Shown: piece after piece, positions 12,093 through 30,402 of the stretch
Numbering within the stretch: the stretch's first letter is position 1
How the letters are laid out: every line of letters begins with the position of its first letter
Source of the DNA: Caldilineales bacterium
GTDB taxonomy: Bacteria; Chloroflexota; Anaerolineae; JAAEKA01
Assembly: GCA_025055015.1 (NCBI GenBank)
Contig: JANWYQ010000027.1
Coordinates: forward strand, 1 to 38,030
Length of the DNA: 38,030 nucleotides
Direction of reading: 5' to 3'
Translations under genes and position numbers: made by a program
The notes under the pieces: generated by a model
Told to the model about the DNA's origin: nothing
Database searches by the model: none
Seen by the model: only the letters and a program-made list of their open reading frames with translations

Positions 12093-12442
12093 GGGCCACC
12101 GAGGCTTCGTCTCCCCAGGTCACGCCGCTCGAGGCGATCTTGCTCAAGGAGCAGGAGGTGGCGGAGCGCCTCCAGGCCGCCCGCGAGGCGGCCGAGGCGC
12201 GGGTGCAGGCCGCCCGCCAGGCCGCTGAGCGCTTGGTGGCCGAGGCACAGGCGCGCAGCGAGGCCCGCAGCCGGCAACACTACGCCCAGGGGATGGCCGC
12301 TGCGCAGGCCGAGGCGGCGGAGATCGTCCGCCAGGGGGAGATGGCCGGCGCTCAGCTGGAGAAGGAGGCGGAGCTTCACATGGCCGAGGTGGTGCGCCAA
12401 ATGGTGGCGTTGGTGCTACCCTCTCCCGGAGGACGCCCATGA
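12089..12442 (+). CDS. V/A-type ATPase peripheral-stalk subunit G/H
   Basis: A 117-residue coiled-coil protein rich in Ala, Glu, Gln and Arg (for example EQEVAERLQAAREAAEAR). By composition, length and position it is the G (also called H or F) subunit, which pairs with subunit E as the peripheral stalk. No catalytic residues are expected. Translationally coupled on both sides: ATGA overlap with subunit D and with subunit I. Confidence 0.8.
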   Translation: MRATEASSPQVTPLEAILLKEQEVAERLQAAREAAEARVQAARQAAERLVAEAQARSEARSRQHYAQGMAAAQAEAAEIVRQGEMAGAQLEKEAELHMAEVVRQMVALVLPSPGGRP

Positions 12443-14343
12443 TCGTGCCCATGGCCAAAGTGCAGATCATCGGCCACCTGCGCTGCCTGGACGAGACGCT
12501 GCAACAGCTGTATCAGCTCCGGCTGGTGCATATCATCGAGCACGGGCCGCAGGCGGGCGCTGCGCTGCGCACTGCGACTCTCGGCGCCGAACGTCTCAAG
12601 GAGCAGGAGACGCTGCGCTACCTGCGCGCGCGGCTGGAGGCCGTCCTTCAGCTTCTGCCGCCCAGGGCTGGTCCGGCACAGCCGGCCGAGCCGCCCACGG
12701 TGTTCAGCGCCGAAGAGATCGAGGCGCTGCGCGCCGAGATCGAGACCATCACCCCGCGCCTCGAGGCCTTGGTGCAGCAGATGGACGCGCTGCGCCAAGA
12801 GCAGGCCACCTTGCCCCGCTATGCCCAGTCCATCCAGCGGCTGCTGCCCCTGGTCCCCACCCTGGCCCAACCCCAGCGGTTCGAGACGGTGGCCCTCCTG
12901 CTCAACCGTCGCCACGCGCGCGTGTTGGAGCTCCTGAGCGAGGATCTAACTGCGCTGATGGGCCAACGCTTCGTCATCACCTCGGCGCCGGTGGACGGCG
13001 ATACTCTCGGGGCCGTGTTGGTCTTCCCGCGACGCTACTCGGCCCAGGTCCACGCACTGCTGGGGCGAGAGCGGGTCAGCGAGGTGCGGCTGCCGCCGTC
13101 GCTCGCCGACATGCCCCTCTCGCGCGCCCTGGCGACCATCGAGCAGCGCCTCCACCAGATCCCGGCGGAGCTGGCGGCGGCCGAGGCGGAGCTGGACGCG
13201 CTGACGGCCCCCCACCGCGAGCGCTGGGCTGCGGCCAGCCGCTATATCGCCGACCGCTTGAACCAGCTCAACGCAGTGCGCCTGTTGGGCGCCACGGAGC
13301 ACACCTTCGTGCTGGTCGGCTGGGTGCCACGGCAGGAGGTACCCCGGCTGCAGGCGCTGCTGGCTGAGCGTGTCGGTCCGGCGGTCGTGTGCCACGAGCT
13401 GCCCTTGTCGGAGGAGGATCGAAGCCAGGCGCCGGTGCTGTTGCAGAACCCGCCCCCTGCGCGGCCCTACGAGTTCCTGGTGCGGCTGCTGTCGCTGCCC
13501 CGCTACGGCACCATAGATCCTACCCTGCTGATGAGCCTGTTTCTGCCCTTGTTCTTCGGGATCACCCTGGGCGACGTCGCCTACGGCCTGGCGCTGATAG
13601 GGATCGCCCTGCTCTTGCGCCGCCGGCTGGGCGGCAGCTCGGCGACGTGGCGCGACCTGAGCCACGTGCTGCTGATGGGCGGGGCCTGGTCGGTCGTGTT
13701 TGGTTTCGTGTACGGCGAGCTCCTGGGCAACCTGGGACACCAGCTGGGCATGCACCCCCTGTGGCTCAACCGAGAGGAGGCCCTGCAGCCGCTGCTGCTC
13801 TTCTCCGTGGCCATCGGTGTAGGCCATGTCACCTTGGGTCTGCTGCTGGGGGTGTGGGTGGCCTGGCGGGAGCGCCACCGCCATGCGCTGCTGGAGAAGG
13901 TTGGCCTGTTGGTGGCGCTGATGGGGCTGTTCCTGATGGCGGCGCAGGTGATCGGCCGGCTGCCGCGCGGCTTCTTCACCCCGGGCTTGGCCGCCCTGGT
14001 GGTCGGGCTAGTGCTGCTGATCCGCTCCATGGGCGCGCTGGGGCTGCTGATGGCTCCCCTGGAGGTGTTGAGCACCGTCGGCAACATGCTGTCGTACCTG
14101 CGCATCGCTGCGATTGGGCTATCCTCCGTCTACCTAGCGCGGGTGGCCAACGAGATGGTGGGCGCGCTGGGTCCGCTCTGGCTAGGCGTGCTGGTTGCGG
14201 TGTTCTTCCACGCGCTGAACGTGGCCCTGGGCGCCTTCAGCCCCACCATCCACTCGCTGCGCTTGCACTACGTGGAGTTCTTCGGCAAGTTCTACCAAGA
14301 GGGCGGCAGGCCGTACGAGCCGTTTGGCGCTGCCTCCCCATGA
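12439..14343 (+). CDS. atpI: V/A-type ATPase membrane subunit I (a)
   Basis: Stator membrane subunit with the two ion half-channels and the arginine that releases the ion from the rotor ring. The 634-residue protein has a soluble N-terminal half (to about 340, with long coiled helices) and a C-terminal half of about seven to eight membrane segments. Typical blocks are seen: RYGTIDPTLLMSLFLPLFFGITLGDVAYG (first membrane part), LGNMLSYLRIAAIGL-like STVGNMLSYLRIAAIGLSS, and the ending SLRLHYVEFFGKFYQEGGRPYEPF. The Arg in SYLRIAA is the expected essential arginine (family knowledge). Coupled to the previous gene by an ATGA overlap. Confidence 0.93.
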   Translation: MIVPMAKVQIIGHLRCLDETLQQLYQLRLVHIIEHGPQAGAALRTATLGAERLKEQETLRYLRARLEAVLQLLPPRAGPAQPAEPPTVFSAEEIEALRAEIETITPRLEALVQQMDALRQEQATLPRYAQSIQRLLPLVPTLAQPQRFETVALLLNRRHARVLELLSEDLTALMGQRFVITSAPVDGDTLGAVLVFPRRYSAQVHALLGRERVSEVRLPPSLADMPLSRALATIEQRLHQIPAELAAAEAELDALTAPHRERWAAASRYIADRLNQLNAVRLLGATEHTFVLVGWVPRQEVPRLQALLAERVGPAVVCHELPLSEEDRSQAPVLLQNPPPARPYEFLVRLLSLPRYGTIDPTLLMSLFLPLFFGITLGDVAYGLALIGIALLLRRRLGGSSATWRDLSHVLLMGGAWSVVFGFVYGELLGNLGHQLGMHPLWLNREEALQPLLLFSVAIGVGHVTLGLLLGVWVAWRERHRHALLEKVGLLVALMGLFLMAAQVIGRLPRGFFTPGLAALVVGLVLLIRSMGALGLLMAPLEVLSTVGNMLSYLRIAAIGLSSVYLARVANEMVGALGPLWLGVLVAVFFHALNVALGAFSPTIHSLRLHYVEFFGKFYQEGGRPYEPFGAASP

Positions 14344-14366
14344 CGAAGGCAACGAGGAGACCCGAC

Positions 14367-14591
14367 ATGGAGCTTGGCTTGCTCGCTTTGGGCGCGGGCT
14401 TGGCCGTGGGGCTGACAGCCATCGGCACCGGCTACGCCCAAGCCCGCATCGGCTCGGCCGGCATCGGCGCCATCGCCGAGAAGCCGGAAGTCGCCGGCCG
14501 CGTGATTCTGTTGGTGGCGATTCCGGAGACCATGATCATCCTCGGTTTCGCCGTGGCCGCCATGATCATCCTGCTGCTGGGCGGCGGATGA
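14367..14591 (+). CDS. atpK: V/A-type ATPase rotor-ring subunit K (c)
   Basis: A 74-residue proteolipid with two membrane helices (about 3-28 and 45-72), the single-hairpin form rather than the four-helix form of Enterococcus NtpK. The ion-carrying carboxylate is Glu54 in IPETMIILGF. The loop is IAEKPEVAGR. Helix 1 carries Gln25 (TGYAQARIG), and Thr55 follows the Glu; both residue types occur in sodium-binding rings, but the full set of ligands cannot be assigned here, so H+ or Na+ remains open. It starts 23 nt after subunit I, with GAGGAG upstream, and its stop overlaps the ATG of subunit E. Confidence 0.93.
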   Translation: MELGLLALGAGLAVGLTAIGTGYAQARIGSAGIGAIAEKPEVAGRVILLVAIPETMIILGFAVAAMIILLLGGG

Positions 14592-15217
14592 CGGAGTCGC
14601 CGATGGCCCTGGAACACCTCCTGGCTGCCATTGAGCAAGAGACAGCACAAGAGATCGGCCGCATCGAGGCGGAAAGCCATCGCGCGGCCCAAGAGATCCT
14701 GGCCCAGGCGCACGCCCGCAGCCAGGAGATTGAGGCAGAGGCGCTGGCCGCGGCCGAGCGGGCCCTGCGCGGCGACGCGGCACGGCTGGTCGTTCAGTCG
14801 CGCATCCAGGCCACGCGCTCGGTGATGCACGCCCGCGAGGCCATCTACCGCCGCGCAGTGCAACAGACGGAGGCTGAGCTGGCCGCCGCGCGCAGCCGGC
14901 CCGACTACCCCGCTCTCCTGGCGGCGCTGCTAGCCGAGGCGATCGCTGCCCTGCCCAGGGAAGTCGTTGACGGTCCCGACGCCGGCCTGGTGGTCTACTG
15001 CGACCCGCGCGACGCTCCGTCGGTGCAGGCGCTGCTGGCGGGCCGACGGGCGACGGTGGCGCCGTCGCTGACCACTTGGGGCGGGGTGGATGTGGCCACG
15101 GCCGACCAGCGCATCGTGGCCCGCAACACCCTGGAGGCGCGGCTGGCACGCGCCGAGCCACACCTGCGCCGCCTGGTAGCCCAGGCGCTCTTCGCCGTCG
15201 CTGAGCCCCATGTCTGA
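14588..15217 (+). CDS. atpE: V/A-type ATPase peripheral-stalk subunit E
   Basis: A 209-residue protein: helical N-terminal half rich in Ala/Glu/Gln (IEQETAQEIGRIEAESHRAA) and a globular C-terminal part with GGVDVATADQRIVARNTLEARL, the typical end motif of subunit E. It forms the peripheral stalk with subunit G/H. The ATG at 14588 overlaps the stop of subunit K (ATGA); an in-frame ATG at 14603 is a less likely alternative. Its last codons overlap the start of subunit C by eight bases. Confidence 0.9.
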   Translation: MTESPMALEHLLAAIEQETAQEIGRIEAESHRAAQEILAQAHARSQEIEAEALAAAERALRGDAARLVVQSRIQATRSVMHAREAIYRRAVQQTEAELAAARSRPDYPALLAALLAEAIAALPREVVDGPDAGLVVYCDPRDAPSVQALLAGRRATVAPSLTTWGGVDVATADQRIVARNTLEARLARAEPHLRRLVAQALFAVAEPHV

Positions 15218-16325
15218 CGACTTCGGCTACGGCAATGCCCGCCTGCGCGCCATGAAGGCGCACCTGTTCGACGCCCGGCACTACCAAGAGCTGCTGGCCA
15301 AGGACCTGGACGGGCTGATCGGCAGCCTGGCTCAGACCGTCTACAAGCCCGACGTGGACGCGGCCCTGGTCCGCTTTCGCGGGGTGCAGGTGGTGTACGA
15401 GGCGGTGCGCACCCACCTGGCCCGCACCTTGCGCCGGGTGGCCGGCTTCTACCAGGGCCGGCCGCGACAGCAGGTGGACCTGCTGCTGGCGCGCTGGGAT
15501 CGGCGCAACCTGCTGACGGTGTTGCGCAGCCAGGCCCTCCCCCCGCTGCGCCGGCCGGAGGAGCCCACGGCCCTGCTGGTGCCGGCCGGCGCCCTGGACG
15601 AGGCGGCGCTTGCTGAGCTGTTGCGCCAGCCCGACCTACGCAGCACCGTTGACCTGCTGGTGAGCTGGCTGCCCGACGCGGCCATGGCCCACAGCCTATT
15701 GGACGCCTGGCCGACCTACGCACAGACCGGCAACCTGGCCGTGCTGGAGCACGCGCTCAACAGCGCCTACGCCCGCTGGCTGGATGCCCAGGTGCAGTGT
15801 GCCCAGCCGATCGGAGACGGCCAGGGCTGGCTGCGCCGCGTGCTGTGCGCCGAGATCGAGCAGGCCAACCTGCTGATCAGCTTGCGGCTGCGCCAGGCGC
15901 GGCTGGTCGGCCAGCACGGCTGGGAAGCGGCGGTCCAGGGCGAGACGGACGAGACCCCCTTCCTGCCCTGTGGCCGGATCAAGCCCGGCCTGTTGGCCGA
16001 CATCGTCTCCTGCGAGACTGCAGCCGAGGTGGTTGGCCTGCTGGCCAGGGTCCCCGGCCTGAGCGCGTGGCAGCCGGCCCTGGCCGAATGGCAGGAGACC
16101 GATGACCTGCTGGCCCTAGAGCGAAACCTGGAGCGCGCGCTGACCCGCCAAGCCATAGACTTGTTCGTGGTCGGCGATCCGCTGAGCGTGGCCGTGCCCA
16201 TTGCTTTCGTGTGGGCCAAGGAGAACGAAGCCCGCAACCTGCGCTTGCTAGCCCAGGGCTTGGCGCACCAGATGCCGCCGGACGAGATACGGCAGACGCT
16301 GTTCTTATGGCCCGCCTCATCGTAG
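15210..16325 (+). CDS. atpC: V/A-type ATPase subunit C (d/AC39)
   Basis: Funnel-shaped subunit that seats the central shaft on the membrane ring; 371 residues, mostly helical. The N-terminal part FGYGNARLRAMKAHLF and the C-terminal GDPLSVAVPIAFVWAKENEARNLRL block are the signatures of the AC39 family. Both neighbours overlap it (8 bases with E, 19 bases with F). Confidence 0.9.
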   Translation: MSDDFGYGNARLRAMKAHLFDARHYQELLAKDLDGLIGSLAQTVYKPDVDAALVRFRGVQVVYEAVRTHLARTLRRVAGFYQGRPRQQVDLLLARWDRRNLLTVLRSQALPPLRRPEEPTALLVPAGALDEAALAELLRQPDLRSTVDLLVSWLPDAAMAHSLLDAWPTYAQTGNLAVLEHALNSAYARWLDAQVQCAQPIGDGQGWLRRVLCAEIEQANLLISLRLRQARLVGQHGWEAAVQGETDETPFLPCGRIKPGLLADIVSCETAAEVVGLLARVPGLSAWQPALAEWQETDDLLALERNLERALTRQAIDLFVVGDPLSVAVPIAFVWAKENEARNLRLLAQGLAHQMPPDEIRQTLFLWPASS

Positions 16326-16654
16326 TCACCACGCCCGAGCTGGCGCCCGGCTTTCAGCTCACCGGCGCAGTGACCCTGGCCGCCGGCTCTGCCCGTGCGG
16401 CCAGCGCCCTGGTGCGCGAGCTGCTGCAGCGCAAGGAAGAAGGCATCATCGCCGTACACGAGCCCTACTGGCAGGAGATGGACCTCGACTTGCGCCGTCG
16501 GCTGGAGCGCATTGTCAACCCCGTGGTGATCCCCTTGCCCACCGGCCGGCTGGCGGCTGCGCCGGCCGAGCGCCGAGCGGCCATTGCGGCGATGCTACGC
16601 CAGGTGATCGGCTATCGCATCACGCTGCCCGGCGAGGAGGCCACAGCCAAGTGA
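16307..16654 (+). CDS. atpF: V/A-type ATPase subunit F
   Basis: Small shaft subunit (115 residues) bound to subunit D. Seen: an N-terminal strand MARLIVVTTPELAPGFQL, Gly/Ala turn, KEEGIIAVHEPYW, and PVVIPLPTGR, all in the family order. The ATG at 16307 lies inside the end of subunit C, and the family match begins there; the frame open to 16211 is not needed. Confidence 0.88.
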   Translation: MARLIVVTTPELAPGFQLTGAVTLAAGSARAASALVRELLQRKEEGIIAVHEPYWQEMDLDLRRRLERIVNPVVIPLPTGRLAAAPAERRAAIAAMLRQVIGYRITLPGEEATAK

Positions 16655-16674
16655 CCGGACCCGGAGTGAGCGCT

Positions 16675-18429
16675 ATGGCAGAGGTCGGATCGGTCGTGCG
16701 GGTGGCAGGCCCGGTGGTGGTGGCCGAAGGCCTGCCTCGCGCGCGGCTCTACGACGTAGTCTACGTCGGCCCGCTTCAGTTGATCGGCGAGGTGATCCGG
16801 CTGCAGGGGGACCTGGTCACGGTGCAGGTGTACGAGAACACCTCCGGCCTGCAGGTGGGAGATCCGCTGGTGGAAAGCGGCGCGCCCCTGGAGGTAGAGC
16901 TAGGGCCGGGGCTGCTGGGCTCGATTTTCGACGGCGTGCAGCGCCCCCTGCCTGCCATGGCCTGCAGCGCTGCGGACCCCTTCGGTCAGCCCTTCGTCCG
17001 CCGCGGGGGACAGACTGCGCTGCCGGCGCTCGATCGGCAGCGGGTGTGGGAGTTTGAGCCCAAAGTGCAGCCGGGCCAGGCCGTAGCTGCCGGGGACGTG
17101 TTAGGCGTGGTGATGGAGACTGCCCACCTGGCCCACCGCGTGTTGGTGCCGCCCCGGCGCGCGGGAACGGTGACCCAGGTGCGCGCCGGCCGGGTCACCG
17201 TCGAGGAGCCGGTGGTGTGGCTGGACGGCGAGCCGCTGACGCTGCTCCAGCGCTGGCCGGTGCGCCAACGGCGGCCTTTTGTGCGCAAGCTGGACCCCAC
17301 CGAGCCGCTGATCACCGGCCAGCGGGCCATAGACATGCTCTTCCCCTTGGCGCGCGGGGGCTCGGCCATCATCCCCGGCGGCTTCGGCACAGGCAAGACC
17401 GTGGCGCAGCAGACCATCGCCAAGTGGGCCGACGCGGACATCATCGTCTACATCGGCTGCGGCGAGCGAGGCAACGAGCTGACCGACGTGTTAGAGGAGT
17501 TTCCGGCCCTGGTGGACCCACGCACCAACCAGCCCCTGATGCAGCGCACCATCCTGATCGCCAACACCAGCAACATGCCGGTAGCGGCGCGCGAGGCCAG
17601 CATCTACACGGGCATCACCATCGCCGAGTACTACCGCGACCAGGGGTACCACGTGGCGCTGATGGCCGACAGCACCAGCCGCTGGGGCGAGGCGCTGCGC
17701 GAGGTGTCCGGCCGCCTGGAGGAGATGCCGGGGGAGGAGGGCTTTCCGGCCTATCTGCCCACGCGGCTGGCGGAGTTCTACGAGCGCGCCGGCCGGGTGG
17801 AGTGCCTGGGCAGCGACGACCGCATCGGCTCGGTGAGCATCATCGGCGCCGTCTCGCCTCCGGGCGGCGACTTCTCCGAGCCCATCACCCAGCACAGCCT
17901 GCGCATCGCCGGCACCTTTTGGGCGCTGGACACGGACCTGGCGCGACGACGCCACTTTCCGGCCATCCACTGGACCCGCAGCTACACCCTGTACAGGCTC
18001 GGAGGCTGGTTCAACCGCCAGGTGGCCGCCGACTGGGAGGACCACCGGGAGTGGGCGCTGGCCCTGCTGCAGCGGGAGACCGATCTGCTGGAGATCGTGC
18101 AGCTGGTGGGCGCGGACGCGCTGGCGCCCGCCGAGCGCGCCATCCTGCTCACCGGTCGGCTGGTGCGCGAGGACTTTCTGCAGCAGTCGGCCTTCGACGA
18201 TGTAGACGCTTTCTGTCCACTGTCTAAGCAGTACCACATGCTGGCGGTGATCCGCCACTTCCACGAGGTGGTCAACCGGGCGCTGCGCCGTGGGGCTTCG
18301 ATTGAGCAGATTGCAGGGCTGCGCTGCTTGGCGCAGATCGCCCGCATGCGCCTCTGGGACCCAGCGGAGGCCGCCGCTCAGGCCCAGGCGCTGCGTGCGG
18401 CCATCGAAGAGGAGGTGTCCCACCTGTGA
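16675..18429 (+). CDS. atpA: V/A-type ATPase catalytic subunit A
   Basis: Catalytic subunit of the A3B3 head. Walker A is GGFGTGKT (Lys241), followed by the [14 protein letters not shown] segment with the catalytic Glu and by the [22 protein letters not shown]-type region. The A-type non-homologous insert (residues ~115-190, with [14 protein letters not shown]) is present, confirming A rather than F1-beta. A GTG at 16651 overlaps the previous stop and would add eight residues, but GGAG 8 nt before the ATG at 16675 and the start of family similarity ([15 protein letters not shown]) favour 584 residues. Its stop overlaps the GTG of subunit B. Confidence 0.95.
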
Positions 18430-19925
18430 GCTCCTTATCGCAGCCCGTGTCCGTTAGCTCGAGCACAGCCCAACCGGCGCTGCCCGGCCGAGATCGTCCC
18501 AGCCTGGTGACCATCGAGTACCGCACGCTGACCCACATCACCGGCCCGTTGTTGTTTGTCGAGCGGGTGCAGGGGGTGGGCTACGACGAGATCGTGGACG
18601 TGCTGTTGCCCACGGGCGAGGTGCGCCGCGGCCAGGTGCTGGAGGTGAACCGGGACCGAGCCGTCGTGCAGGTGTTCGCCGGCACCCGTGGCCTGGGCTT
18701 GGAGGACACGCGCGTGCGCTTTCGCGGGGAGGTCATGCGCCTGGGCGTGGGCCTCGACATGCTGGGCCGCACCCTTAGCGGCTCCGGGCTGCCCATAGAC
18801 GGCGGCCCCCCCATCACGGCCCAGGAGTGGCGCGACATCAACGGCCTGCCCATCAACCCCGTGGCGCGCGACCATCCCTCGGAGTTCATCCAGACCGGCA
18901 TCTCGGCCATAGACGGGCTGAACACCCTGGTGCGCGGCCAGAAGCTGCCGATCTTCTCCGGCTTCGGCCTGCCGGCCAACGAGCTGGCGGCTCAGATTGC
19001 GGCCCAGGCGCGCGTGCGCGGGGCCGAGGAGGAGGCGGAGGGCGCGGTCAGCCAGGAGTTTGCGGTGGTGTTCGCAGCCCTGGGCATCACCTACCGGGAG
19101 GCGAGCTTCTTCCGCCGCCATTTCGAGGAGAGCGGTGCGCTGGAGCGCTCGGTGCTCTTTCTCAACCTGGCCGACGACCCCACCATCGAGCGGCTGCTGA
19201 CCCCGCGCGCAGCTCTGACCACCGCCGAGTTTCTGGCCTTCGACCAGGGCATGCACGTGCTGGTGATCATGACCGACATGACCAACTACTGCGAGGCCCT
19301 CCGCGAGGTCTCCAGCGCGCGGGAGGAGGTGCCCGGCCGCCGCGGCTATCCCGGCTACATGTACACCGACCTGGCCACCCTGTACGAGCGCGCCGGCCGC
19401 ATTCGCGGGCGCCCCGGCTCGGTCACCCAGTTGATCATCCTCTCCATGCCGGACGACGACATCACGCACCCCATCCCAGACCTGACCGGCTACATCACCG
19501 AGGGACAGATCGTGCTGTCGCGCGACCTGCACCGCCGCGGCATCCGTCCCCCCATTGACGTGCTGCCCAGCCTAAGCCGGCTGATGAACGCCGGCATCGG
19601 GCCGGGCAAGACCCGCGAGGACCACCGCAGCGTGGCCGACCAGCTCTATGCGTTCTATGCCCAGGGCCGCGACCTGCGCCGGCTGGTGGCCATCGTCGGC
19701 GAGGCCGCCCTGTCTAGGGAGGATCAGCGCTACCTAGCCTTCGCCGGCCGCTTCGAGCAGGAGTTCATCCACCAGGGGGACGCCAACCGCTCCGTCGAGG
19801 AGACGCTGGACCTGGCCTGGAAGCTGCTGGCCGCCTTCCCCATCGCCGAGATGAAGCGCATCAAGCCGGAGCTGATCCGGCGCTACCTGCCCAGCCTGCC
19901 CGCTCAAGAGGAAGAGGAGGACTGA
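18426..19925 (+). CDS. atpB: V/A-type ATPase non-catalytic subunit B
   Basis: Regulatory nucleotide-binding partner of subunit A in the head; 499 residues. Seen: [17 protein letters not shown] at the start of the family region, [41 protein letters not shown] and [31 protein letters not shown]. The P-loop of subunit A is absent, as expected ([10 protein letters not shown] in its place). The GTG start at 18426 overlaps the stop of subunit A and gives about 27 extra N-terminal residues; no better start is visible. Confidence 0.95.
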
Positions 19926-25342: not shown

Positions 25343-26299
25343 ATGTCCCAAATTGCGATTGCTTCCCAGTTCGACCCAGCGGCAGACCTGGTGCTCTACG
25401 AGGGCGACTGCCTCGATCTGTTGGCGCAAATCCCCGACGGCTTCGTCCAGCTGGTCGTGACGTCGCCGCCCTACAACCTGGGCAAGCCCTACGAATCGCG
25501 GCTCGACATGGCGGAGTACCTGGCTCAGCAGCGGCGGGTAATCGAGGAGTGCGTGCGCGTCGTCAACGACCGGGGCAGCATCTGCTGGCAGGTGGGCAAC
25601 TACGTGGACAACGGCGAGATTGTTCCGTTGGATATCGTGCTGTACCCTATCTTCGCCTCCCTAGGTCTTCACCTGCGCAACCGAATTGTTTGGCACTTTG
25701 GACACGGCTTGCACGCTTCCAGGCGGTTCTCCGGCCGCTATGAGGTCATCCTGTGGTTCACCAAGGGCCATGACTACACCTTCAACCTGGACGCCGTGCG
25801 CGTGCCCCAAAAGTATCCGCAGAAGAAGTACTTCAAGGGACCCAAAAAGGGGGAGCTCTCAGGCCATCCTTTGGGCAAGAACCCGAGCGATGTGTGGGAC
25901 ATCCCCAACGTAAAGGCCAACCACGTAGAGAAGACGATCCACCCCTGTCAGTTTCCCACCGAGCTGGTGGAACGCCTGGTGTTGGCCATGACAGACGAGG
26001 GGGACTGGGTGTTGGACCCGTTCATGGGGGTGGGAACAACGGCCATTGCCGCTCTGATGCACCACCGCAAGGCCATCGGCGCTGAGATTGTTCCGGAATA
26101 CGTGAGCATCGCCAGGGAACGGGTTCGTCTAGCGGAACAAGGAGCGCTTCGCATTCGCCCCATGGCCCGATCGGTGTACGATCCCGACCTGCCGCAGGCC
26201 AACGTTCCGCCGCAGGTTGTGCGGCTAGGATCGGCACCCGTGCAGGCTAAACTCTTTGAGCCACGCGCTCCATACGAGGCCGAGGAGCTCGAGCCGTGA
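25343..26299 (+). CDS. Type II DNA methyltransferase (beta-class order, probable N4-cytosine)
   Basis: Modification half of a restriction-modification pair; 318 residues. The catalytic motif IV is TSPPY (40-44), near the N-terminus, and the AdoMet-binding motif I, DPFMGVGTT (225-233), is near the C-terminus. This order is that of the beta class. SPPY rather than DPPY or NPPY is usual for N4-cytosine enzymes, though some N6-adenine enzymes share it. The target recognition region should be between them (about 100-200). The next gene encodes a BstYI/BglII-like nuclease, so the site is probably RGATCY or a close relative (inference). The nuclease start codon overlaps its stop. It is driven by a strong promoter next to oriC. 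Confidence 0.9.
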   Translation: MSQIAIASQFDPAADLVLYEGDCLDLLAQIPDGFVQLVVTSPPYNLGKPYESRLDMAEYLAQQRRVIEECVRVVNDRGSICWQVGNYVDNGEIVPLDIVLYPIFASLGLHLRNRIVWHFGHGLHASRRFSGRYEVILWFTKGHDYTFNLDAVRVPQKYPQKKYFKGPKKGELSGHPLGKNPSDVWDIPNVKANHVEKTIHPCQFPTELVERLVLAMTDEGDWVLDPFMGVGTTAIAALMHHRKAIGAEIVPEYVSIARERVRLAEQGALRIRPMARSVYDPDLPQANVPPQVVRLGSAPVQAKLFEPRAPYEAEELEP

Positions 26300-26865
26300 G
26301 GGTCGTCTACGAGCACTCGCACTTGGGTGGATCGGAGATTCTCCAGGTCCGTTATCCCGAGCACAACCGTGAGATCTATGAGGTCATTGCGACGGTTACG
26401 GCGAGACGATCCAAACCCCGTCGCGAAAAGACGATGGAGGGACAGGCCCTTTACTCGCCCAGAGACTTGAATCGGCAGTTTCTTGAGGCGTTCAGATCCC
26501 GAGGATACGCCCAACTACGGGACTCTTACACCATCACGGTGCCGAACAGCGAGGTGTCTATTCCGGGAGCGTTCAAACAGATTGACTTCGTAAAGGGAAA
26601 GGTCCTTGTTGAAGTGCAGTTCGGCAAGTACGCGTTCATGTTCTATGACATGGCCAAGTTCCAGTACTTCTTCAACGAAAACAAAGCCGATATCGGTGTC
26701 GAGATTGTCCCTTGCCACGCGCTTCATTCCAGAATGTCTACGGGCGTTTCCTATGGTGAGCAGCTCGTGTACGATATCGAGCGGTTGAAGCGCCACTTCC
26801 CTTCCGTTCCTGTCAAGGTGATCCTGATAGACGTTGACGATCCTGAGCAACCCGAGACGAGGTGA
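26296..26865 (+). CDS. BstYI/BglII-family type II restriction endonuclease
   Basis: Cuts unmodified DNA at a GATC-centred site. The 189-residue protein aligns by eye with BstYI from its first residues: start MRVVYEHSHLGG against MRIVEVYSHLNG, then KTMEGQALYSP, and FVKGKVLVEVQFGKY against FVKDRVAIEVQFGKY. It ends with VGVEI and a STGVSYGE block. The BglII-type active site D-x8-E-x-Q is complete: Asp97, Glu106 and Gln108. BstYI is R^GATCY and BglII A^GATCT, so a related site is likely but the exact one is inference. It starts at GTG (26296), overlapping the methyltransferase stop by four bases. Base composition looks less GC-rich than its neighbours, in keeping with recent transfer. Confidence 0.88.
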   Translation: MRVVYEHSHLGGSEILQVRYPEHNREIYEVIATVTARRSKPRREKTMEGQALYSPRDLNRQFLEAFRSRGYAQLRDSYTITVPNSEVSIPGAFKQIDFVKGKVLVEVQFGKYAFMFYDMAKFQYFFNENKADIGVEIVPCHALHSRMSTGVSYGEQLVYDIERLKRHFPSVPVKVILIDVDDPEQPETR

Positions 26866-26869
26866 ACCG

Positions 26870-27709
26870 ATGACTAGACTCCGCAAAGGCGGGCTCTATA
26901 GAAGCGCGCTGTTGATCTTGGCCGCCTGGGCCCTGGCCGCGTGCGGTGGACCCTCCACCCCGGAGCCGCCGGCTGCGGCCACGGCAACGCCCCTCTTGGC
27001 GCAGCCTGCGGCCGCGGCTGCGCCGACTTCGGCGCCGGCGGAAGCCTCCCCAACGGCCACCGTTGCAGCGGCGCCGGAGCCCACCCACACCCTGACGCCG
27101 ACGGCCGAAGCCACGACGTCGCCATCCCCAGCGGCTGCGGAGACGCCCACGCCGCTCCCTGCGGCGGTCTTCGGCCAGACGGCCGAGGGGCTCTACTTTC
27201 GCGGCAGCCCAGACCCGGCGGCCCTCACGGTGATCAACTACTCCGACTTTCTCTGAGGGGCCTGCCGTGGATACGTGCTATCCACTGAGCCCCAGGTGAT
27301 CGCCGCGTACGTGGACACGGGCAAGGTCCGCTACGTGTACTACCCTATGCTGGACATCGGCGACACGCAAAAGGCCTACGAAGCGGCTGAGTGCGCCGGC
27401 GCTCAGGGGGCCGAGCACTTCTGGTCCCTCCACGACGTGCTGTACGAAGAGCAAGGCCGGCTCTTCCGGCCCAGCACCGACCTATTTGTGGAGCTGGCGC
27501 AGCGGGCCGGGGTGCCCGACCTGGCGCAGTTCCGCCGCTGCGTGGAGAGCGGCCAGTTCGCCGCCAAGGCGACGGAGCTGGACCGGCTGCGCCGCGCCGC
27601 GGGCATCCGCTTGCGCCCCACCCTTAAGGTCGGCGACCAGGTCCTGCCCGGCGCCCAGCGCTTTGAGCGGCTGGCCGAGGTGATAGACGCTGCGCTGGCG
27701 CAGCGATAA
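26870..27709 (+). CDS. Selenocysteine-containing DsbA-like lipoprotein (in-frame TGA at 27254-27256 read as Sec)
   Basis: A membrane-anchored, extracytoplasmic thiol-disulfide oxidoreductase of 279 residues if TGA codes for Sec129. Residues 1-25 form a lipoprotein signal (hydrophobic stretch, lipobox ALAAC, lipidated Cys25). Residues ~28-98 are a Pro/Ala/Thr linker. From ~100 comes a DsbA/thioredoxin_4 domain: VINYSDFL, then U129-G-A-C132 where relatives have CxxC, then VLSTEPQVIAAY, the helical insertion (AEHFWSLHDVLYEE) and the cis-Pro region RLRPTLKVG. The frame is identical before and after the TGA, has no other stop, and similarity continues without a break. A SECIS-like hairpin follows the TGA. 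ACGAGG before ATG 26870 and a 4-nt gap after the nuclease gene suggest cotranscription. Alternative: a recent nonsense change. The tRNA-Sec and selA/selB genes are not in this window. Confidence 0.85.
27257..27293 (+). promoter_or_regulatory. Bacterial SECIS-like hairpin after the in-frame TGA
   Basis: Begins on the base after the TGA. Lower stem GGGGC (27257-27261) with GCCCC (27289-27293); internal loop CTGCC / TGA; upper stem GTGGATA (27267-27273) with TATCCAC (27279-27285), perfect 7 bp; apical loop CGTGC with the G-U pair of bases that SelB recognition needs. There are 17 nt between TGA and loop, in the range for bacterial SECIS elements. Confidence 0.8.

Positions 27710-28638: not shown

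Positions 28639-28640
<2 letters not shown>
28524..28640. repeat. Heptanucleotide tandem array (CCATTGN), about 16-17 units
   Basis: Units are CCATTGA, CCATTGC, CCATTGG and close variants, without interruption, up to CCATTAA at the stop codon of the formate-tetrahydrofolate ligase gene (TAA, plus 28639-28641). Read on the minus strand it can be translated as MVNGQWAMANGQ-like peptides, but that is a by-product of the repeat. Confidence 0.92.

Positions 28641-30402
<1,762 letters not shown>

Follow-up and report, generated by a model that had tools for sequence, protein, structure and literature searches.

The window analysed here, a stretch of 38,030 nucleotides from a Caldilineales genome, contains a gene which is predicted to encode a selenoprotein of the NCBIfam family NF041057. 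We give this reading, namely that an in-frame UGA codon in a family member is decoded as selenocysteine (Sec), a probability of about 0.95; the redox direction of the enzyme lies outside this figure. Computation supports the reading frame, the family, the decoding machinery, the covariation of the SECIS hairpin, purifying selection and the fold. The gene is a well-supported addition to an already known selenoprotein family. The analysis supports a selenoprotein which a plain ORF list breaks in two and contributes SECIS covariation from 19 genes, and the family offers a direct comparison of Sec and Cys in one probably extracytoplasmic enzyme. The coordinates are collected in Table 1.

Table 1. 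Features of the selenoprotein gene and its immediate surroundings, in window positions.
Feature	Position	Strand	Basis or remark
N6/N4 DNA methylase and BglII-type endonuclease genes	25343-26865	+	PF09195, PF01555; the ORFs overlap by 4 bases
Shine-Dalgarno-like GAGGTGA	26859-26865	+	few bases 5′ of the ATG, overlapping the preceding gene's stop codon; found by eye, unscored
Selenoprotein gene, 279 codons, codon 129 TGA (predicted Sec), stop TAA	26870-27709	+	sequence; NF041057, 242.5 bits
Lipoprotein signal peptide, residues 1-25, lipobox LAAC (C25)	26870-26944	+	sequence; helix 4-24 in the model; export and lipidation putative
Ala/Pro/Thr-rich linker, residues ~26-98	26945-27163	+	sequence; low model confidence in this part
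Thioredoxin_4/DsbA domain, residues 111-274	27200-27691	+	Pfam PF13462 (75.6 bits), PF01323 (36.5 bits); Foldseek
In-frame TGA, predicted Sec129, opens the U-G-A-C active site	27254-27256	+	sequence; TGA/Cys comparison across members
Predicted SECIS stem-loop, whole, including lower stem GGGGC/GCCCC	27257-27293	+	folding
Cys132, second (resolving) active-site residue	27263-27265	+	invariant in 20 aligned proteins
bSECIS apical hairpin, 7-bp stem (27267-27273 with 27279-27285), loop CGUGC	27267-27285	+	folding, covariation
Pro250	27617-27619	+	invariant column in the 20-protein alignment; presumably where thioredoxin-fold oxidoreductases carry their cis-proline
Terminator-like 14-bp hairpin directly 3′ of the TAA	27726-27757	.	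listed on the - strand; place suits the end of the full-length gene

Two stop codons are found in the frame, a TGA at 27254 and a TAA at 27707. Translation through the TGA yields 279 residues, with the active site U129-G-A-C132 and a lipobox LAAC ending in C25, a residue invariant in 20/20 aligned proteins. The preliminary description had presented the locus in this manner, as an otherwise open frame with a single TGA placed precisely where a DsbA/Thioredoxin_4 domain has its first active-site residue, and with a lipobox before the domain; the Pfam matches and the translation confirm each of these points. It had further argued that the TGA is not there by chance, and the codon indeed recurs at this place in another genome and in 19/31 family genes, as detailed below. 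The expectation that gene callers would split the gene agrees with the mechanical ORF listing, which divides it at the TGA into 26834-27256 and 27275-27709. Taken alone, both pieces stay below the family cut-off of 190 bits: the first aligns through its residues 27-140 with profile positions 2-100 (50.1 bits), the second with positions 109-246 (147.3 bits). An Rfam scan of the window gave no match, and terminator-like hairpin sites number two against 0.5 expected.

Against NF041057, the full-length protein scores 242.5 bits (cut-off 190), residues 15-274 covering positions 2-246 of the 247-position profile. The features of membership are all present, that is, a score above the cut-off over nearly the full length, the lipobox Cys, and U129 with a Cys at +3. 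Among the scored candidates, the best member of the family reaches 292.4 bits, above the window protein. In a sample of 400 genomes from the same phylum, a match at E 1e-40 or better is found in at least 84 and a score above the cut-off in at least 30; these are lower bounds, as at most six candidates were scored per genome. In the same order, all six genomes (the window's own included) match at E 0.001 and two of the six pass the cut-off.

The full name of the family, "Rcas_1661 family thioredoxin-like (seleno)lipoprotein", states the lipid anchor itself. Compared with NF041057, the window protein is alike in its near full-length match, its lipobox and its UxxC/CxxC site, and no difference appears among the features compared. 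The proposal that the protein is likely new therefore does not hold, as it passes the cut-off of a family which the tables of a 2026 review (PMC13188914) already list as a UxxC selenoprotein. In that review, NF041057 stands as "DsbG-like protein" under "Predicted with high confidence". The tables of PMC9312934 file the DsbG-like protein under Thioredoxin_4 with a UxxC site, and a DsbG-like selenoprotein was tabulated as early as 2005 (PMC1088965, UXXC) and again in 2006 (PMC1794560). By these table entries, the published protein and that of the window share UxxC, NF041057 and Thioredoxin_4. As for differences, the word lipoprotein is absent from the main text of all four papers. In the consulted part of PMC5029168, nothing on the NF041057 family was found. 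The claim that the lipoprotein architecture is undescribed finds no support, NF041057 being curated as a '(seleno)lipoprotein' family. The Sargasso Sea survey (PMC1088965) has a DsbA-like selenoprotein (9 sequences, UXXC) which resembles the window protein in its DsbA-likeness and active site but differs by its filing, under COG2761 and, in PMC13188914, under PF01323, separately from the DsbG-like family. What stands of the earlier interpretation is a DsbA-like selenoprotein which has a lipobox and a U-x-x-C site, well supported by the complete Sec machinery, the TGA/Cys exchange and a covarying SECIS; what falls is novelty, since a family already curated and tabulated leaves no discovery of a new selenoprotein.

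The exchange between Sec and Cys was followed in 31 family genes including that of the window, mostly the best match of each genome and not a random sample. The active-site codon is TGA in 19/31 and a Cys codon in the other 12/31; the script which scored it looked for Sec or Cys only, and the alignment places all 31 genes in register. Alignment with Cys homologues, the check suggested by the preliminary description, thus puts a Cys codon at the TGA position in 12 members. In total, 52 loci were scored at this site (19 TGA, 33 Cys). The 21 loci kept out of the 31-gene set all carry TGC and come from genomes of the same order, several being repeats of one multi-domain gene, while L024, L030, L044, L046-L048 and L077 were left unscored. 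L020, from genome G005, is the closest of the aligned relatives (53% identity) and shares the TGA at this codon. A tree of the 31 genes, built with the Sec/Cys residue masked, requires at least five Sec/Cys changes, three of which are forced by starred branches. Downstream of the UGA, comparison of the window gene with L020 across 150 codons yields a Ka/Ks of 0.16, with a nearly saturated Ks; in four other pairs the ratio is 0.09 to 0.21. Judging by these ratios, the sequence 3′ of the UGA is under purifying selection. A separate contig scan returned 74 loci, with best named matches in Roseiflexus and Chloroflexus (31-41% identity). Its pattern spells the active site with Cys, so that Sec forms are hardly retrievable; these loci are left uncounted and carry no statement on Sec frequency.

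Within G005, a second UGA gene (L036:1393-2349) has the site U-P-F-C and scores 162.2 bits, below the NF041057 cut-off. One of the five core pairs of its SECIS is missing, and the gene is possibly a separate subfamily. Two genomes of one genus show adjoining pairs of TGA-containing family matches (G257:C13:1424-2981 and G299:C300:5885-7425), 112 and 116 bases apart.

The putative SECIS element of the window lies directly after the UGA. Its hairpin has an upper stem of 7 bp and a loop of 5 nt, G then U from loop position 2, lies 17 nt after the UGA and falls within every bSECIS limit quoted in the consulted part of PMC13188914. Folding of the 42 nt after the UGA gives a minimum free energy of -18.9 kcal/mol and a z-score of -2.55, against z-scores of -1.29, -0.65 and 0.16 for three longer stretches. 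The lower stem GGGGC/GCCCC is absent from L020. Over the 19 UGA genes, the five core pairs are formed in 94/95 cells, with double changes in 24 cells, and the covariation score is 0.758 compared with 0.230 after shuffling. None of 500 shuffles reached the paired cells, the double-change cells or the covariation score, in a test in which related rows count repeatedly. When the helix is slid by 1-3 columns, at most 64.2% of the cells remain paired. Two further measures do not exceed the shuffles: the number of pairs with a double change (4) is reached by 143/500 and the number of further pair types (8) by 167/500.

All five core pairs are formed in 18/19 UGA members but in 1/12 Cys members, and by cells the figures are 94/95 and 41/60. 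Folding of single sequences separates the two groups weakly (mean z of -0.82 for the 19 UGA loci against 0.00 for the 33 Cys loci), so that the case for the SECIS rests on covariation. The conserved hairpin is not what minimum-energy folding returns for several UGA members, and one (L072), with -7.3, misses the bSECIS limit of -7.5. The single Cys member with all five core pairs (L069:1771-1812) is placed inside a UGA clade of the tree and therefore looks like a recent change with the SECIS kept; its hairpin is apparently a SECIS fossil, and the direction in this case would be from Sec to Cys.

The components for decoding are encoded in the same genome, a draft of 238 contigs which is 91.6% complete. 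A search for selA, selB, selD and tRNA-Sec recovered all four: SelA with 580.4 bits (cut-off 267.9), SelB with 352.5 bits when the pieces of its frame are combined (cut-off 242.25), SelD with 366 bits (cut-off 125) and a tRNA-Sec with 72.9 bits (gathering threshold 47), confirmed by ARAGORN with the anticodon tca. As these genes are present, the objection that the genome might lack them does not apply. The tRNA scans gave no hit in the window itself or in the 4.1-kb SelB locus. The SelD frame also contains a TGA, within GUASKMAP, which we take to be the known Sec/Cys site of this enzyme; another TGA, close to where the translated stretch ends, is probably its stop. Among 18 genomes whose examined family copy has UGA, SelB exceeds its cut-off in 16 and a tRNA-Sec is found in 17. 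One draft (G390) has a UGA copy but neither a SelB above the cut-off nor a tRNA-Sec at E 1e-9, and another (G251) has a SelB fragment below the cut-off only. Where the examined copy carries Cys, SelB passes in 5/12 genomes and tRNA-Sec is present in 7/12; these counts concern the examined copies.

The structure model has a mean pLDDT of 85.5, rising to at least 95 in each block of ten residues from residue 101 on. Pfam, the model and Foldseek agree on a DsbA fold with an inserted helical domain and a CxxC-type site. The best solved matches of Foldseek, DsbA/TsdA of C. diphtheriae and BdbD of B. subtilis (22-26% identity), are also the best matches of a sequence search. They share the fold and have Cys where the window protein would have Sec. 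From these elements, we infer the following course. SelB and tRNA-Sec would decode the UGA of codon 129 as Sec, directed by the stem-loop just 3′ of it. After export, the product would carry a lipid on Cys25, with the flexible linker tethering it outside the membrane. There, the DsbA-fold domain may exchange disulfides, with Sec129 as the attacking nucleophile and Cys132 as the resolving residue in a selenenylsulfide/selenolthiol cycle. Electrons could be supplied outward by a CcdA/DsbD-type transporter, for which the genome offers a weak DsbD_TM match (C134:59156-60109; 33.3 and 28.8 bits, cut-off 27.1).

Other explanations of the locus have to be weighed against Sec decoding. The TGA could be a real stop, from a nonsense mutation or in a pseudogene, so that a lipoprotein stub is left. 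Of the window ORFs taken as genes, 12/16 end in TGA, more than in any other stop, but relatives share the codon, the downstream Ka/Ks is 0.16, the Sec machinery is complete and the SECIS covaries, and we regard this reading as very improbable. The frequent use of TGA as terminal stop also means that the code is not reassigned, and a TGA read as an amino acid throughout the organism, for which no supporting sign was found, has next to no probability. An error of sequencing or assembly in place of TGC or TGT is conceivable for a window taken from a draft in 238 contigs. However, the TGA recurs in a second genome (G005) and the window hairpin is whole, as it is in 18/19 UGA but only 1/12 Cys members, which makes an error exceedingly improbable. 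Finally, the gene might form part of the BglII-type restriction-modification unit immediately 5′ of it, whose endonuclease gene lies on the same strand and stops 4 bases before the ATG. Against this, the surroundings of the gene in three relatives (L152-L154), compared over 10.0 to 11.5 kb, contain no match to the restriction genes, none of the 10 neighbouring ORFs scanned there is one, and such a link is very unlikely. All four explanations are rejected on these points.

With Sec decoding retained, the direction of electron flow is the more delicate matter. The same selenoprotein could act as a DsbA-like oxidase which inserts disulfides and is re-oxidised by VKOR. The names of its closest solved relatives (DsbA, TsdA, BdbD) and the VKOR gene of the genome are consistent with this, and we consider it a serious candidate, somewhat short of even odds. 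However, the VKOR gene (C210:15202-15573) directly follows another DsbA-like gene with a Cys site (C210:14410-15132), on a contig different from that of the selenoprotein gene, and the tables cited above name the family DsbG-like, a name given by similarity only. If the Cys-based DsbA-like/VKOR pair is taken to cover oxidation, the Sec lipoprotein would more likely reduce or isomerise disulfides. A reductase/isomerase or repair role is hence slightly favoured over that of an oxidase, a preference drawn entirely from genome content. More tentative, and in our view rather less than an even chance, is the fuller picture of a dedicated outward-facing reductase/isomerase which is kept apart from the Cys-based DsbA-VKOR oxidase and whose active site has repeatedly switched between Sec and Cys.

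The gene neighbourhood was compared with that of the same three relatives. Besides the family gene, one gene is shared, and in G005 only: the gene at 28639-30402, presumably a formate-tetrahydrofolate ligase, has a counterpart close to the G005 copy, with 77% identity across 182 aa. With one neighbour shared in one of three relatives, no partner is shown. Farther upstream, the ORF list at 12439-19925 contains what we take, by eye, to be a cluster resembling a V/A-type ATPase operon in a bacterium. On contig C134, a single frame of ~700 aa (L155:1337-3448, + strand) carries three tandem DsbA-like domains with the sites CPYC, CPFC and CPFC, preceded by a lipobox-like VAGC. It matches NF041057 three times (446.4 bits), and three such matches in one frame are also found in 4/5 other genomes of the order.
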